DNA of 63,795 bases from Nitrosomonadaceae bacterium (GTDB lineage Bacteria > Pseudomonadota > Gammaproteobacteria > Burkholderiales > Nitrosomonadaceae), in the NCBI GenBank assembly GCA_014190895.1, contig BJGV01000005.1, positions 1 to 63,795 of the forward strand, given 5' to 3'. The notes beneath the pieces were generated by a model. The model saw only the letters and a list, made by a program, of their open reading frames with translations, was not told the DNA's origin and did no database searches. Positions 4,803 through 49,425 of this stretch are shown here, piece after piece (position 1 is the first letter of the stretch; every line of letters begins with the position of its first letter). A program made the translations under genes and the position numbers.

Positions 4803-7800
4803 TTATTTCTTATCGCCCCACTCTCGCCAACCCTTTAATAAAGGGAAATATAATCCCAGTCTTACTGGCTGGTCATAAATCGTACGCATAACTTTAGCGT
4901 AACGATCGAGCTGATCACGATAACGCTCCTGTTCATGATCAAGAAATTTTTCTATGTCGGGGCCTTCATGACTACTCGTTTTATAATCTATAATCCAACG
5001 AAATCCATCTGTACTAAAAAAAGTTCGATCAATTATAAGGTTAACATATTCGGTATCAATTACCGTCGTTATACATAACTCATTATGAGAATCTTGCTGC
5101 GGCCCCAATATCCATCTACCAAGCGAATCCTCTACAGTATAAGTCAGTGCTGTAGTCACACTTGTAATTGCTGTCTCGATATCCCTACCGTTATTACTCA
5201 TACCGCATGCGATCAAATTTTTCCTAAATGTATCATGGAGCGCTTTAATTTGTGATACATTCCAACCAATAATTTTGTCTTCTGCTATACGTTGCAGCCA
5301 TCTATGTACGACACTTCCGATATGTCGCGCAGTTTTTCCTGCCCATGAAAATTCAATTTCATTTTGCGTGCCTACTATATTTTTTAGTGAATGCCATTCC
5401 ATTTGCTGTGGCACCATGGGCATTTCCCAATTTGACACAAGACGACATAGCAACTGACTAGACTGAGGTTCATCCAGTTCTTCATTTTTTTTTCTATTAG
5501 CCGTAAGAAATGTATCCGAAAACATAATTTTTGAAGCGGCTTCGACATAAATATTTTCAATTACTGGCCAGAGTTTACTTAACAGCGATCTTCGAATAGG
5601 TGGTCTGAGCTCTATAACACCATCTTGATTAGCATTTAAACTTGTGTTGCCAAGTAAATGCAAGAAACGCTTTGCACGTGTCGCCGCAACATAAAGTAAT
5701 CTTCCATCCTCTAAATCTTCTTTTTCTGCATCCAGTTTCTCTAAAAAAGCATAAATAGAATCGCCATCTGAACCTATTTGTTGAATTGGTGCGAGCAATA
5801 AATCAATATTTCTTGCATTTCCATCAACTAAGGATTGCGCATGACTACGCTCCATCCATGCGAGTAATTTCTTAGTCTTGACTCTCGAAAGACGATCAAT
5901 TCCGGGCATTATGACACAATCAAATTCAAGACCTTTTGCCTTATGAATCGTCATTATTTGCAAAGTACCATTTTCTTCTAAATCTGGCAGCGCATAGAGC
6001 TCAGCTAATTCCTTCTCAAATACTTCGATATCATAAGTATTAGCTGTTCTCTCGTGTGTCTCAAGATGATCGAAATAAATTGCCGCATTCCCTAGGTCAG
6101 TTACACTCTTAATACAAGCTGGCCCACCAAGGGCTATCCATGCTTTTTCAATAGTTATACGTAGGGATTGCCGGTAACTATTGTCAATGCAATTACTCAG
6201 CACTTCTCGCACACGTAGTAGTCGAGTAATTCCATCAATAGAGACTCCTGTCATAACTGCCTCACTATTAAGCAACTCCCATATCGTTTTTTCATTTTCT
6301 TCTGTATTTTCTTCTCCGCTACTTACAACATTAGAACTATAAACAGTTTTCATCGAGACAATTGCATGAAGGTCAGACAGTATTAGACCGCACCAAGGTG
6401 CACGTAATACTGCAAGCCATGCCAACTTGTCAGCCAAATGAGTCAATGCACGCGTTAAAACTAGTAAATCTTGTATCACTGGTTGGCAATCAAGTTTCTC
6501 AATTTCAATCGCACGAAAACGCAACTTCATTTCCCTAATTCGTGGAATTATTTTATATAAATGAGCGCGATTACGTACCAAAATTGCAATAGTAGAAAGT
6601 GGATTTTCACGCTGTACATGCATAATAATCTCAATCACTTTTTCTGCTTCTGCCATATGATCATCATTGAAAAATGGGTGCACGGTCACCGCTGCATCAA
6701 TTAATTTTTTGTGTATGGATATTGATGCTGTATATGGCACCGCACCGGTAGAAATATTCTCATTTCTCGGCATTATTTTTTCAAAAGTATTGTTAATCCA
6801 ATCAACAATGCCGTGCTGAGATCGAAAATTTGTACGCAGATAAATGGGTTGTAAAACGATGTTACCGATGCCTTCTGCACGAGCACGCAGAAATAACCCA
6901 ACCTCAGCTTCACGGAAACGATAGATTGACTGCATTGGATCTCCAACTAAAAACAGACTTCTTCCATCACCCAATTCCCAACCAGCAGTGAGTTTTGTGA
7001 TTAGTTCATATTGACTGATCGACGTGTCTTGAAATTCATCTACTAATAAATGCTGAATTTTGTAGTCAAGCGTAAGCGCGAGATCTGTTGGCGCATTAAT
7101 TTCCCCTAATGCGCGCAAAGCACTCTGCGCAACTTCAGTAAAATCAACTTGTCCGTATGATTGAAATACAAGCTTCATTTGTCCAACTACAATTGGTAAT
7201 AATCGTACGATTGATCTGAGTACTCTCCATTGAGCATCGGTATAAGTAGGTGGTGGAAGAAAACGGATATCATGTAAAGTTTGAGATAGAGCATCTCTCT
7301 CCATGAGTATAGCGCTAAGGGCAAAAACACGTGATTTCCATGTTTTAGCAACTTCTTTTTCCGTTTTATTTTTACCTGCCGGAAAACCATTATTACGATT
7401 GTATTGTTTTCGCCAAACTCCATCTTTGGTAAGCAAAAGTTCGGCTATGCCATACCAGAGAGAAACATCGTGTTCTTCATTACCCGGCAAGAGATTAAGA
7501 TCTTTACAAGTAATAAGTGGGGAATCTTTACAATCAGCGATAAGATTATTCGCCGCATAATGTATAATTTTTATCAGCTCATCCTGCGTCGAGAGAGGAT
7601 AGATACTCAATAGCTGGGACATTGCCTCTCGACGTATATTCTTAAGAGTCGTTTCTAATCTGTTGCGATCTTTATAGTAAATGTAACGCAACCATTGATC
7701 CCGTCGCGATAACATGTCAGCAAGCAGTTTTTCAATCTTAATCACGTCATTATCAAGGTGCTCTAATAAACATCTAATATCCTTTGCTGTTGCAGGATCA

Positions 7801-14541: not shown

Positions 14542-14718
14542 AATTATATAGTCTATAAATTAGGTTCTACTCTGAATCTATTCTATTCTAAGGGATTATC
14601 TAATTAGTGATTACACTTACTTTTAGTACCAAAAAATAATTTAAGTGGGCTCAAGTTGGGTATTAGACTGAATAACGCTATGATAACAGCTTCTTGATGC
14701 TGCATTAGAAAGGTAATT

Positions 14719-15255
14719 GTGAAAAAAAAATTAAATAATAATCTTGAGTATGATCTTCCTCTCAGTAAAACTCGCCTTAAGCAAGATATGCATGCGCTAC
14801 AAGACATTGGCGAGCAACTGGTAACATTTAATCTCAAACAACTATCTGAATTGAACTTATCAGAAATACTGATAGATGCAATAATTGAGGCAAAGAAAAT
14901 ACATAAACATGAAGCCCGTCGTCGTCAAATGCAGTTCATTGGAAAACTAATGCGTGAAGTAGATGTGGCCCCAATTCAGCAGAAAATTTCTATCTGGGGC
15001 GGCATTTCTTCGCAACATAATGCATGGTCAAATTTACTAGAACATTGGCGCGATCGTTTACTAACAGACGAACATGCTATTGCTGAATTTGGACGAGAAT
15101 ATCCCGCTGCTGACTTACAACTCTTACGTACACTTATGCGCAATACCCACAAAGAAAAAATTGCTAATAAAGCACCTAAGAGTTTTCGTGTACTATTTCG
15201 TGAGTTACAAATAATTATTCCAAAGACATTGAGAGTTGGCGTGACAACTAAATAG
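14719..15255 (+). CDS. darP: Ribosome-associated protein DarP (YjgA/DUF615 family)
   Basis: A 178-residue YjgA-family protein. In E. coli DarP binds late 50S precursors and aids large-subunit maturation. Recognisable segments are SKTRLKQDMHALQDIGEQL near the N-terminus, EAKKIHKHEARRRQMQFIG in the middle and the C-terminal FRELQ. The start is GTG at 14719, preceded by AAAGG six bases upstream. Divergent from pmbA, a very common arrangement in beta- and gammaproteobacteria, which supports both calls. Confidence 0.9.
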   Translation: MKKKLNNNLEYDLPLSKTRLKQDMHALQDIGEQLVTFNLKQLSELNLSEILIDAIIEAKKIHKHEARRRQMQFIGKLMREVDVAPIQQKISIWGGISSQHNAWSNLLEHWRDRLLTDEHAIAEFGREYPAADLQLLRTLMRNTHKEKIANKAPKSFRVLFRELQIIIPKTLRVGVTTK

Positions 15256-46552: not shown

Positions 46553-47320
46553 TTACGTTTTAAGATCTACTATCACCGGAGAATGATCCGAGGGTCTCTC
46601 GTTCTTACGCGGCTCTTTATCTATAGTACATGTGGTACATGTACTAACAAATTCTTTACTTAACAGAATATGGTCTATTCGCATACCCATATTTCTCCGG
46701 AAAGCCATCATTCGGTAGTCCCACCATGTGTAAGATTTATCAGGTTGATTAAATAGACGGAAGCTGTCCATTAATCCTAGTTTAAGCAGCTCTTTGAATG
46801 CCTCTCGTTCTAAATAGCTAAATAATACCTTCCCTTCCCATAATTCTGGATCATGCACATCACGTTCTTCTGGTGCAATATTAAAGTCACCTAGTAATGC
46901 TAATTTTGGATATTTAATTAACTCGTCTCGCAACCATTTATTAAGCGCAACCAACCAATCTAATTTGTATTGATATTTTTCTGATCCAACACTCTCGCCA
47001 TTTGGAACATAAATACACACTACCCTTGCGTCTCCGTAAGTTGCAGCCAAAACACGTCTTTGAGGGTCTATCAAACCAGGTATTGCAGTAATCACTTCGT
47101 TCCCCACTTTCTTACCAAGTAACGCCACTCCGTTATATGTTTTTTGACCAGCGTAAATAGACTGATATCCTGCATTCATAATCTCAGTTGTAGGAAAATT
47201 CTCATCTTGTAGTTTGGTTTCTTGTAGGCATAACACGTCAGGCTGATTAACTGCTAACCAATTAAGAACCTGAGGTAAACGAACTTTCAGAGAATTAACA
47301 TTCCAAGTAGCAAGTCTCAT
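46553..47320 (-). CDS. xthA: Exodeoxyribonuclease III
   Basis: AP endonuclease/3' exonuclease of base-excision repair (255 aa), EEP superfamily. Visible motifs are WNVNSLKVRLPQ, LQETKLQDENFP with the metal-binding Glu, LLGDFNIAPEERDVHDP with the catalytic Asp/Asn, MRIDHILLS and SDHSPVIVDL with the catalytic His. ATG at 47320. Single gene convergent with mltG. A 270-bp region on its other side separates it from the ferritin-like gene. Confidence 0.94.
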   Translation of the reverse strand: MRLATWNVNSLKVRLPQVLNWLAVNQPDVLCLQETKLQDENFPTTEIMNAGYQSIYAGQKTYNGVALLGKKVGNEVITAIPGLIDPQRRVLAATYGDARVVCIYVPNGESVGSEKYQYKLDWLVALNKWLRDELIKYPKLALLGDFNIAPEERDVHDPELWEGKVLFSYLEREAFKELLKLGLMDSFRLFNQPDKSYTWWDYRMMAFRRNMGMRIDHILLSKEFVSTCTTCTIDKEPRKNERPSDHSPVIVDLKT

Positions 47321-47516: not shown

Positions 47517-47526
47517 CCCCCCCCCC
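47517..47526. repeat. Run of ten C upstream of the ferritin-like gene
   Basis: An uninterrupted C10 tract lies 64 bases before the ATG at 47591, in an otherwise AT-rich intergenic region. It is the longest homopolymeric C/G tract I noticed in the window and lies where a promoter or leader would be. Confidence 0.85.
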
Positions 47527-47590: not shown

Positions 47591-48484
47591 ATGAAAAAAA
47601 CTAAATTCTTATCTATTTTCACATCTGCCACAGAACAAGAGAGAGCGGATAATTTTGATAGTTACTGGGAATTTACACAGAAACATGGCGGACAACTTCT
47701 TGAGGATACTAAGGATTTATCAGAAAAACAGGCTAAGTTATTATATTTTAAGAATCACCCTATCAGATTACAAAAACCACTTGCAAACCCTAATGCTTTT
47801 TATCGTAATTACATTACGATGCAAGATGACCCAAAATCATTAGATCGCATGACATTAATGTTGACGGGTATGTATAAATTTGCTAGACATGAATGGGTGG
47901 GGATTAAAGGTGCATGGGATGTAGTTCCATGCATGGCAGATTCGCATACAATTAAAGATAAGATTAGTCGCATGCATTTAGCTGAGGAATTTTGTCACCA
48001 GCGCCTATTCCATGAAATGTTAATCACCTGTGGATTGGATAAAGTTGAATGGGTTCCTCTGGGACCAATTAAAGAAAAAATCTACGAACAATTTCCTAAA
48101 TTTCCAGAATCTATAATGTCTCCCCCAGCCTTTATAACTGAATTAATGGGGGTGACTTACTATCTCCATTTAAACCATCTCTTGGATGAGGTATTAACTG
48201 ATGAACCAGAGGTGTTGAGACGCATGAAAGAATTGCTAGATGAAATTACTATCGATGAGATAGCACATGTAGGACAGAGAAGGAATTTTATTGGTCCAGT
48301 CGGTATAAGAATATCCAAGATGCTAGTACAGCCATTTTATACCTTGTTTTTCAATGACATCCCAGAAATTGGTCAACTATTTAATGTCAAGAAAATGATT
48401 GAAGATGGTATTAACTTTGACTTTAATAACCTATCCTCTTCTATGATTGAACGCAGTTGGATTCCCTCCTACTGCAAAACTTAA
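47591..48484 (+). CDS. Unassigned ferritin-like protein, predicted di-iron
   Basis: I do not recognise a named family for this 297-residue protein. It is helical and shows the ferritin-like ligand pattern: E101 in ARHEWVG, E133/H136 in AEEFCHQ, E184 in FITELMG, and E223/H226 in IDEIAHVGQ. The spacings of 32 and 39 residues between the first and second Glu of each half match class I di-iron carboxylate proteins (ferritins, R2, AurF-type oxygenases). This predicts an iron-dependent oxidase or oxygenase acting in the cytosol, since no signal peptide is seen. It starts at ATG 47591, stands alone, and is convergent with xerD. Function is inferred only from the ligand pattern. Confidence 0.72.
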   Translation: MKKTKFLSIFTSATEQERADNFDSYWEFTQKHGGQLLEDTKDLSEKQAKLLYFKNHPIRLQKPLANPNAFYRNYITMQDDPKSLDRMTLMLTGMYKFARHEWVGIKGAWDVVPCMADSHTIKDKISRMHLAEEFCHQRLFHEMLITCGLDKVEWVPLGPIKEKIYEQFPKFPESIMSPPAFITELMGVTYYLHLNHLLDEVLTDEPEVLRRMKELLDEITIDEIAHVGQRRNFIGPVGIRISKMLVQPFYTLFFNDIPEIGQLFNVKKMIEDGINFDFNNLSSSMIERSWIPSYCKT

Positions 48485-48516: not shown

Positions 48517-48538
48517 ACATCATCCACGTGGATGATGT
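48517..48538. terminator. 22-bp perfect palindrome at the xerD stop, probable bidirectional terminator
   Basis: The half-site ACATCATCCAC (48517-48527) is followed immediately by its exact complement to 48538. As RNA it would form a 9-bp stem with an ACGT loop, followed on the plus strand by TTTATT. It lies 33 bases after the ferritin-like gene and includes the final codons (HHPRG) and stop of xerD on the other strand. Confidence 0.6.
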
Positions 48539-49425
48539 TTATTATGGAGCTGCTTCAATCTCTCCCTTGCCACATGAGTATAGATCTGTGTTGTGGAAAT
48601 ATCCGCATGGCCCAATAACAATTGCACCACACGCAAATCAGCACCATGATTAAGTAAATGGGTAGCAAAAGCATGACGTAACGTGTGCGGTGATAACGGT
48701 TTCTCAATACCAGCATGGTGTGCATGGCGTTTTATGAGATGCCAGAAGGCTTGACGTGTCATAGACTTACTTCGAGTAGTCAAAAATAATGCATTGGCAA
48801 TTTTTCCATTTAGAAGAGTTGGTCGGACTTCTGTCATGTAACGACTAATCCAGGCTAATGCTTCCTCTCCTAATGGCGCCAATCGCTCTTTCCCGCCTTT
48901 ACCCATAACTCGCACCACACCCATACTCAAACTTGTTTGTCCAACTGTCAAGCCGACCAGTTCGGATACTCGCAACCCGCTAGCATAAAGCACTTCTAGC
49001 ATGGCACGATCCCGTAGGCCCAATAAACGGGCTACATCAGGCGAATTCAGTAACCCCTCTACGTCTGTTTCAGTAAGATTCTTAGGTAGGATGCGCGGCA
49101 ATTTTGGGGTGTCAATATTCAAACTAGGGTCCACTAGAATCTTTCCCTGACGAAGCAGAAAACGATACAATCTTTTTAAACTTGACAATTCACGACTGGT
49201 AGTACTGGCTTTGACTCTGGTGAAAACTTTATAGGCAAGAAACTCGAGTAAATTGGAATGATTGGCGTCTACTAATACGGTCGCATGATGTTTTTCTAAC
49301 CATACGCCAAATTGCTGCAAATCATTACGATAGCTTTCCAATGTATTCTTCGATAGACCATCTTCTAACCATAAGGCATCAGAAAATTCATCCAGTAACT
49401 CTGCGTTAAGCTGAGAGACTTTCAT
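48520..49425 (-). CDS. xerD: Site-specific tyrosine recombinase XerD
   Basis: Chromosome-dimer-resolving recombinase (301 aa) that acts with XerC at dif. The N-terminal SAM-like DNA-binding domain starts with DALWLEDGLSKNTLESYRND. Catalytic residues are Arg in ASGLRVSELVGL, His/Arg in LSPHTLRHAFATHLL, His in LLGHADISTTQIYTHV and the terminal Tyr in the same block. It begins inside the end of ogt (20-bp overlap), so the two form an operon. I saw no dif-like site in the window. Confidence 0.94.
   Translation of the reverse strand: MKVSQLNAELLDEFSDALWLEDGLSKNTLESYRNDLQQFGVWLEKHHATVLVDANHSNLLEFLAYKVFTRVKASTTSRELSSLKRLYRFLLRQGKILVDPSLNIDTPKLPRILPKNLTETDVEGLLNSPDVARLLGLRDRAMLEVLYASGLRVSELVGLTVGQTSLSMGVVRVMGKGGKERLAPLGEEALAWISRYMTEVRPTLLNGKIANALFLTTRSKSMTRQAFWHLIKRHAHHAGIEKPLSPHTLRHAFATHLLNHGADLRVVQLLLGHADISTTQIYTHVARERLKQLHNKHHPRG

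Follow-up and report, generated by a model that had tools for sequence, protein, structure and literature searches.

The window analysed here, that is, the whole stretch of 63,795 nucleotides, carries a reading frame of 297 codons that is open throughout on the plus strand, as had been predicted from the letters of this DNA, and its product is referred to below as P0001. On one side of this gene lies xthA (46553-47320, minus strand), and on the other lies a convergent gene for a XerC/XerD-type tyrosine recombinase (48520-49425, minus strand). The gene itself and the repeat that separates it from the recombinase gene are as follows.

47591 to 48484, plus strand: open reading frame of P0001, 297 aa, a predicted R2-like dimetal-carboxylate protein of the ferritin superfamily
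48517 to 48538, no strand assigned: terminator-like 9-bp inverted repeat with a T-rich tail on both strands, between the P0001 gene and the convergent recombinase gene

Agreement with four relatives at codon positions 1, 2 and 3 was 0.74-0.77, 0.88-0.91 and 0.45-0.51, respectively, and because of this pattern we conclude that P0001 is a real gene under purifying selection, which we class as strong. The G+C content of the gene is approximately 0.37, which is below that of most of its flanks (0.34-0.45). The search for inverted repeats around the gene returned two, compared with an expectation of 0.7 from shuffles. Upstream of the gene, the A+T-rich gap also contains a run of ten C residues (window 47517-47526).

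Ligand residues and predicted fold

The original prediction had proposed a class I di-iron ligand set at E101, E133/H136, E184 and E223/H226, and this numbering is correct. The residues in question, together with a conserved C-terminal tail, map to the window as listed here, the helices being those of the predicted model.

47891 to 47893, plus strand: codon of E101, the first ligand, on helix 86-109; invariant in 42/42 and 27/27 sequences
47987 to 47998, plus strand: E133-F-C-H136 (ExxH), on helix 121-146; ligands invariant
48140 to 48142, plus strand: codon of E184, on helix 173-201; invariant
48254 to 48268, plus strand: D222-E223-I-A-H226 (DExxH), on helix 206-233; D, E and H invariant
48458 to 48475, plus strand: C-terminal W290-I-P292-S-Y294-C295; W, P, Y and C invariant

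All six ligands are kept in 42/42 sequences from relatives 60-75% identical to P0001 and in 27/27 of a wider set reaching down to 50% identity, and the conservation in homologues that a genuine metal site should display was in this way borne out. The wider set of 27 sequences deliberately leaves out one row, L092 (locus positions 5477-6427; genome G514), which is the exception to this conservation: it is a diverged second copy that keeps E101, E133, H136 and E184, while K and R replace E223 and H226, and the same genome also carries an intact copy (L093) beside it. The further invariant residues are D222, F140, R99, H100, R127, H129, E132 and R138, with D222, immediately before E223, corresponding to what we take to be the second-shell Asp of the DExxH motif in R2-type proteins. 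When P0001 was shuffled (n = 20,000), two ExxH motifs arose in 18% of the shuffles and the whole spaced ligand pattern in 2.1%, therefore the motif alone is a modest hint. The ligand set stands above chance because the six residues are invariant in both sets and because a confident model places them on four core helices.

This model was obtained with AlphaFold2 from the 42-row alignment and is all-helical, with a mean pLDDT of 92.5, a pTM of 0.91 and 238/297 residues at 90 or above; two of the five models average approximately 92 and three approximately 83. Four long helices, 86-109, 121-146, 173-201 and 206-233, bear the ligands, and they are set among further helices in an order that we take to be R2-like. 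Clustering of the ligands in the predicted fold, on which the di-iron proposal depended, thus finds support in this confident model, where it is read from the positions of four long helices in R2/R2lox order. Structural comparison by VIA-align gave R2lox (4ac8) as the top match (Z 14.5, rmsd 4.3, 229 residues, 12% identity), with human R2 (3olj) at Z 14.1 (rmsd 3.7, 216 residues) and other R2lox and class I R2 chains, among the best 50 matches, within 1.5 Z of 4ac8. R2lox therefore ranks first but within 1 Z of R2, and the best 50 matches include no AurF chain and no CADD chain. Foldseek against the PDB yielded no match with E ≤ 0.001, the leading weak matches being stearoyl-ACP desaturase, R2lox, R2 and COQ7. 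It should be noted that helical models with no clear relative can reach a best Z of approximately 14 in VIA-align, and the fold score of P0001 is therefore support for kinship and no proof of it. The mutual agreement of the ligands and the predicted fold is the stronger argument. Considering both, the Glu/ExxH/Glu/ExxH set and the placement of the ligands on four core helices of a predicted ferritin-like bundle would make P0001 a class I dimetal-carboxylate protein, and it probably belongs to an unannotated family that is part of the ferritin-like superfamily and shares the overall fold of R2 and R2lox.

Comparison with known dimetal proteins

P0001 scores below the cut-off of every Pfam and NCBIfam model, and the search of PDB sequences gave no match beyond a single irrelevant haemoglobin (E approximately 0.1), which agrees with the earlier statement that the protein could not be assigned to a known family. 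More specifically, NCBIfam gave no TIGR04305 (CADD/HDO) match for P0001, R2 (PF00268) is absent among the Pfam matches listed for the family at E up to 10, and FA_desaturase_2 is likewise absent among those listed. Our literature search found no paper on this family among those that it covered.

R2lox is the nearest solved fold, is of similar length and is presumably alike in the kind of ligands and the order of helices. However, identity to P0001 is 8-13% in the R2lox rows of VIA-align with no sequence match, and the Val-Tyr ether cross-link pair of R2lox is absent, given that the positions we take to be those of the Val (E+4) and the Tyr (E-5), judged by ligand offset only, are I105 and P179 in P0001. 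Class I R2 (PF00268) has nearly the same structural score and shares the DExxH motif, but P0001 is without the radical Tyr: the position of this residue in Escherichia coli R2, which lies seven residues beyond the Glu in the first ExxH, is the invariant F140 here. Class Ic R2 proteins also have Phe at the radical-Tyr position. The best fold matches to the model include R2 structures, as would be expected if P0001 were the class I R2 radical subunit of ribonucleotide reductase. This identity is nevertheless highly improbable, considering that more than half of the Nitrosomonadaceae genomes (25/37) have no P0001 match, and it was rejected on account of the R2 gene that the window's genome already possesses (G000:C3:548-1411) and of the invariant F140 at the radical-Tyr position. 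Plant-type acyl-ACP desaturases occupy the first rows of the Foldseek list, but their matches have E values of 0.06 and worse and 12-14% identity in the first four rows.

Only one Pfam family, AurF (PF11583), gives a match to nearly all members of the P0001 family. This match is weak and local and is found in 42/42 members (best E 0.0011) and in 25/27 members of the wider set (best E 0.00027), and it is this recurrence that raises the possibility of an AurF-like N-oxygenase acting on an amine. In hhalign, the comparison of the P0001 family with a set of ten AurF-type sequences paired both ExxH motifs and returned the best E value of five comparisons (0.0074), but at a weak probability of 5%. 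The comparison with R2 gave E 0.071 over 24 columns only, the unrelated controls gave 0.74 (CADD), 0.15 (CcmC) and 0.69 (XthA), and, on the same scale, AurF against R2 gave 5e-7. P0001 itself scores 12.3 bits against the AurF model, compared with a curated cut-off of 29.6 bits, and this Pfam match spans residues 119-144 only. As the part of AurF with which the first ExxH of P0001 is paired differs between Pfam and hhalign, kinship with AurF is a lead only. Additionally, the extra His of AurF is absent: its position, four residues ahead of the Glu in the second ExxH, is I219 in P0001, and overall we consider an AurF-like N-oxygenase rather unlikely.

The CADD-type p-aminobenzoate (pABA) synthase (TIGR04305, HDO) is likewise an O2-using dimetal enzyme found in ammonia oxidisers. 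However, it belongs to a family other than that of P0001, has what we take to be a different fold and is encoded by a separate gene in the window's genome. According to one report, Nitrosomonas europaea uses a CADD-like self-sacrificing pABA synthase (PMC11965152). That P0001 replaces the p-aminobenzoate pathway as this synthase does could be suggested by the proximity of folE in 12 Nitrosospira-type loci, but is scarcely credible, since 35/37 Nitrosomonadaceae genomes match the CADD model, with or without P0001, and since the CADD and P0001 families fail to align in hhalign (E 0.74). This replacement was rejected because a CADD-family gene above the curated cut-off is present at G000:C2:80728-81396, a conclusion that presumes this gene to be active. 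A role in replacing a ubiquinone hydroxylase was also dropped, as flavin Ubi-hydroxylases, the type searched for, occur in 37/37 genomes with no visible trade-off with P0001. In five genomes of the genus g3 (G009, G012, G015, G018 and G021), one Ubi-hydroxylase homologue each gives a split match to the model, in two parts, as though it contained an insert.

Distribution and gene neighbourhoods

The P0001 family is found mainly in ammonia- and methane-oxidising bacteria. Within the Nitrosomonadaceae, it is present in 12/37 genomes and is unevenly spread among genera, with matches in 10/10 genomes of one genus, 1/10 and 0/9 of two others and 1/8 of the window's own genus, while 0/24 other genomes of the same order have a match. 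In the methanotroph order (the order of G452, taken as Methylococcales), 50/151 genomes match, 47 of these with a full-length copy, and the remaining three carry fragments (G541, with internal stops, G581 and G582). The broken copy in G541 lies at G541:C67:89701-89966, and at locus L102 a C-terminal fragment (14659-14904) was seen approximately 8 kb from the intact gene. A third group, the small phylum of the genome containing locus L059, has the family in 8/46 genomes. Matches are otherwise confined to one genome (G628) among the 368 other genomes of the class sample, and 0/397 other genomes in the phylum sample have one. When named GTDB contigs were scanned with exact short P0001 peptides, an approach that detects close relatives only, 50 loci were returned: 22 are titled Nitrosomonas, Nitrosospira or Nitrosovibrio (one of them, L063, a partial gene), 25 bear methanotroph titles (Methylobacter, Methylomonas, Methylovulum, Methyloglobulus, Methylomicrobium, Crenothrix, Methylococcaceae or Methylococcales), two are titled only Gammaproteobacteria bacterium, both with pmoB, and one is titled Deltaproteobacteria bacterium (L059). 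No relative was detected in the viral contigs and plasmids searched. Sequences of ammonia oxidisers and methanotrophs are intermixed in a tree of 76 rows. However, a topology holding the 22 Nitrosomonadaceae rows together was not rejected (p-AU 0.41; 71 rows, with five long rows left out), and as grouped Nitrosomonadaceae are compatible with the data we make no claim of horizontal transfer between ammonia oxidisers and methanotrophs.

The ferritin-like superfamily includes iron-storage, ferroxidase and sensing-type proteins, and the frequent absence of the P0001 gene, together with the decayed or partial copies (G541, G581, G582 and L092), is what might be expected of such a protein or of a non-catalytic relic. 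P0001 is, however, an R2-like protein of one chain that has additional conserved helices, as opposed to a ferritin-length four-helix subunit, and strong purifying selection acts on its gene; we therefore regard a storage, ferroxidase, sensing or relic role as improbable.

The hosts of the family suggest a comparison with the copper membrane monooxygenase. In the Nitrosomonadaceae, pmoB/amoB (PF04744) is found in 9/12 genomes with P0001 compared with 13/25 without, and in the methanotroph order pmoB is found in 41/47 genomes with a full-length P0001 copy compared with 88/104 others, where G573 and G583 are counted as negative, being absent among the positives listed and fitting the two remaining negatives. 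G451, a genome of the third group, has the P0001 family and no pmoB match. Given that there is no association inside the methanotroph order, the link between P0001 and pmoB/amoB is one of lineage only, and a functional tie was rejected. The window's genome (1.32 Mb in 25 contigs, rated 99.97% complete) gave no pmoB/amoB match, as opposed to 4/7 other genomes of its genus, and the multi-copy pmoB/amoB operon may simply be absent from this assembly. In the Methylococcus capsulatus genome, MCA0346 and MCA2963 have phylogenetic profiles that group them with pmoC3 and with a gene of Nitrosomonas, as given in the genome paper (PMC517821).

The original prediction also described the gene as standing alone between xthA and xerD, which is true of the window but does not hold in every other genome. 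Among 48 loci covering the 47 methanotroph-order genomes with full-length copies, ccmC adjoins the P0001-family gene in 20, 16 of which also have ccmB, and the usual arrangement is ccmA-ccmB-X-ccmC-ccmE on one strand, with X being the P0001-family gene; CcmB, CcmC and CcmE were confirmed by Pfam at one such locus. A class-III aminotransferase gene, read by eye as hemL, adjoins in a further 2/48 and also at loci L038 and L047. These neighbours could indicate an oxidase of haem or cytochrome-c assembly, whose target in these cytochrome-rich bacteria would be haem, one of its precursors or a maturation factor. We think this unlikely, considering that 26/48 loci have neither a ccmC nor a hemL-read neighbour, that loci in the other groups have different neighbours and that ccm is, as we take it, far more widespread than the P0001-family gene. 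All of the ccm loci may also descend from one old insertion, and for this reason the ccm setting, although the only widely seen context, is retained as an alternative to the main reading and not as its basis.

Elsewhere the contexts vary. Nitrosospira loci have folE and xthA upstream of the P0001-family gene, and folE (GTP cyclohydrolase I) is nearby in 12 loci of the Nitrosospira type, one of which was checked by Pfam. Third-group loci have a branched-chain aminotransferase gene or other neighbours. Taken together, the neighbours in Nitrosomonadaceae and third-group loci, read partly by eye, are folE, xthA, xerD, bioA-like and branched-chain aminotransferase genes. ABC-transporter ATPases and fatty-acid desaturases are found beside the gene in several loci, but were dropped as evidence because the contexts vary and the count has no background. 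Examples of a membrane fatty-acid desaturase gene near the P0001-family gene are at 3364-4551 of L030 (Nitrosomonas) and at 1136-2290 of L203 (third group). No recurring operon partner, such as a reductase, was found among the P0001-family loci, and the contexts point to no single pathway.

Proposed activity and its meaning

The cautious di-iron interpretation of this gene is supported. P0001 is most likely a stand-alone O2-activating dimetal oxidase or oxygenase, with both the metal site and the activity being predicted, and we consider it reasonably probable that it is an R2-like protein of an unannotated dimetal family that carries out a two-electron oxidation or oxygenation of a small organic substrate. 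The enzyme types offered in the original prediction (an N-oxygenase, a decarboxylase or an unknown oxidase) are candidates at the level of guesses. The data show the reading frame, its conservation, the invariance of the ligands, the predicted fold and the distribution, and from the ligands and the modelled fold we infer metal binding, O2 chemistry and a redox role. In the mechanism that we propose, E101, E133, H136, E184, E223 and H226 on the four core helices would hold two metals, and the pair would most likely be Fe/Fe or Mn/Fe. In its reduced state the site would bind O2 and form a peroxo or high-valent intermediate, following which P0001 would perform a two-electron oxidation of its substrate in the form of hydroxylation, desaturation or oxidation. 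The electrons may be supplied by a shared cellular reductase. Our leading guess, held with low confidence, is that the substrate is probably hydrophobic, because R2lox, the nearest fold, co-purifies with fatty acids and reportedly hydroxylates alkanes (PMC10867098).

A broader and more doubtful possibility is that the family represents a separate, unnamed lineage of R2-like O2-activating dimetal oxygenases, performing an oxidation that is linked to lipid or haem and restricted to bacteria whose membranes oxidise methane or ammonia, and in which the C-terminal WxPxYC tail may take part in catalysis or reduction. What is new for P0001 is the invariance of its ligands, its R2-like model, the absence of a family name, its distribution across methane oxidisers, ammonia oxidisers and one further group, and the exclusion of two roles. 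The six ligands and the C-terminal tail offer direct test points, and since some hosts are available in culture, among them Methylobacter tundripaludum as well as several Nitrosospira and Nitrosomonas strains, removal of the gene could be tried. Soluble dimetal oxygenases perform difficult oxidations with O2, and a conserved, unannotated family concentrated in methane and ammonia oxidisers is a target for a new reaction in bacteria of importance to greenhouse gases and nitrogen loss.
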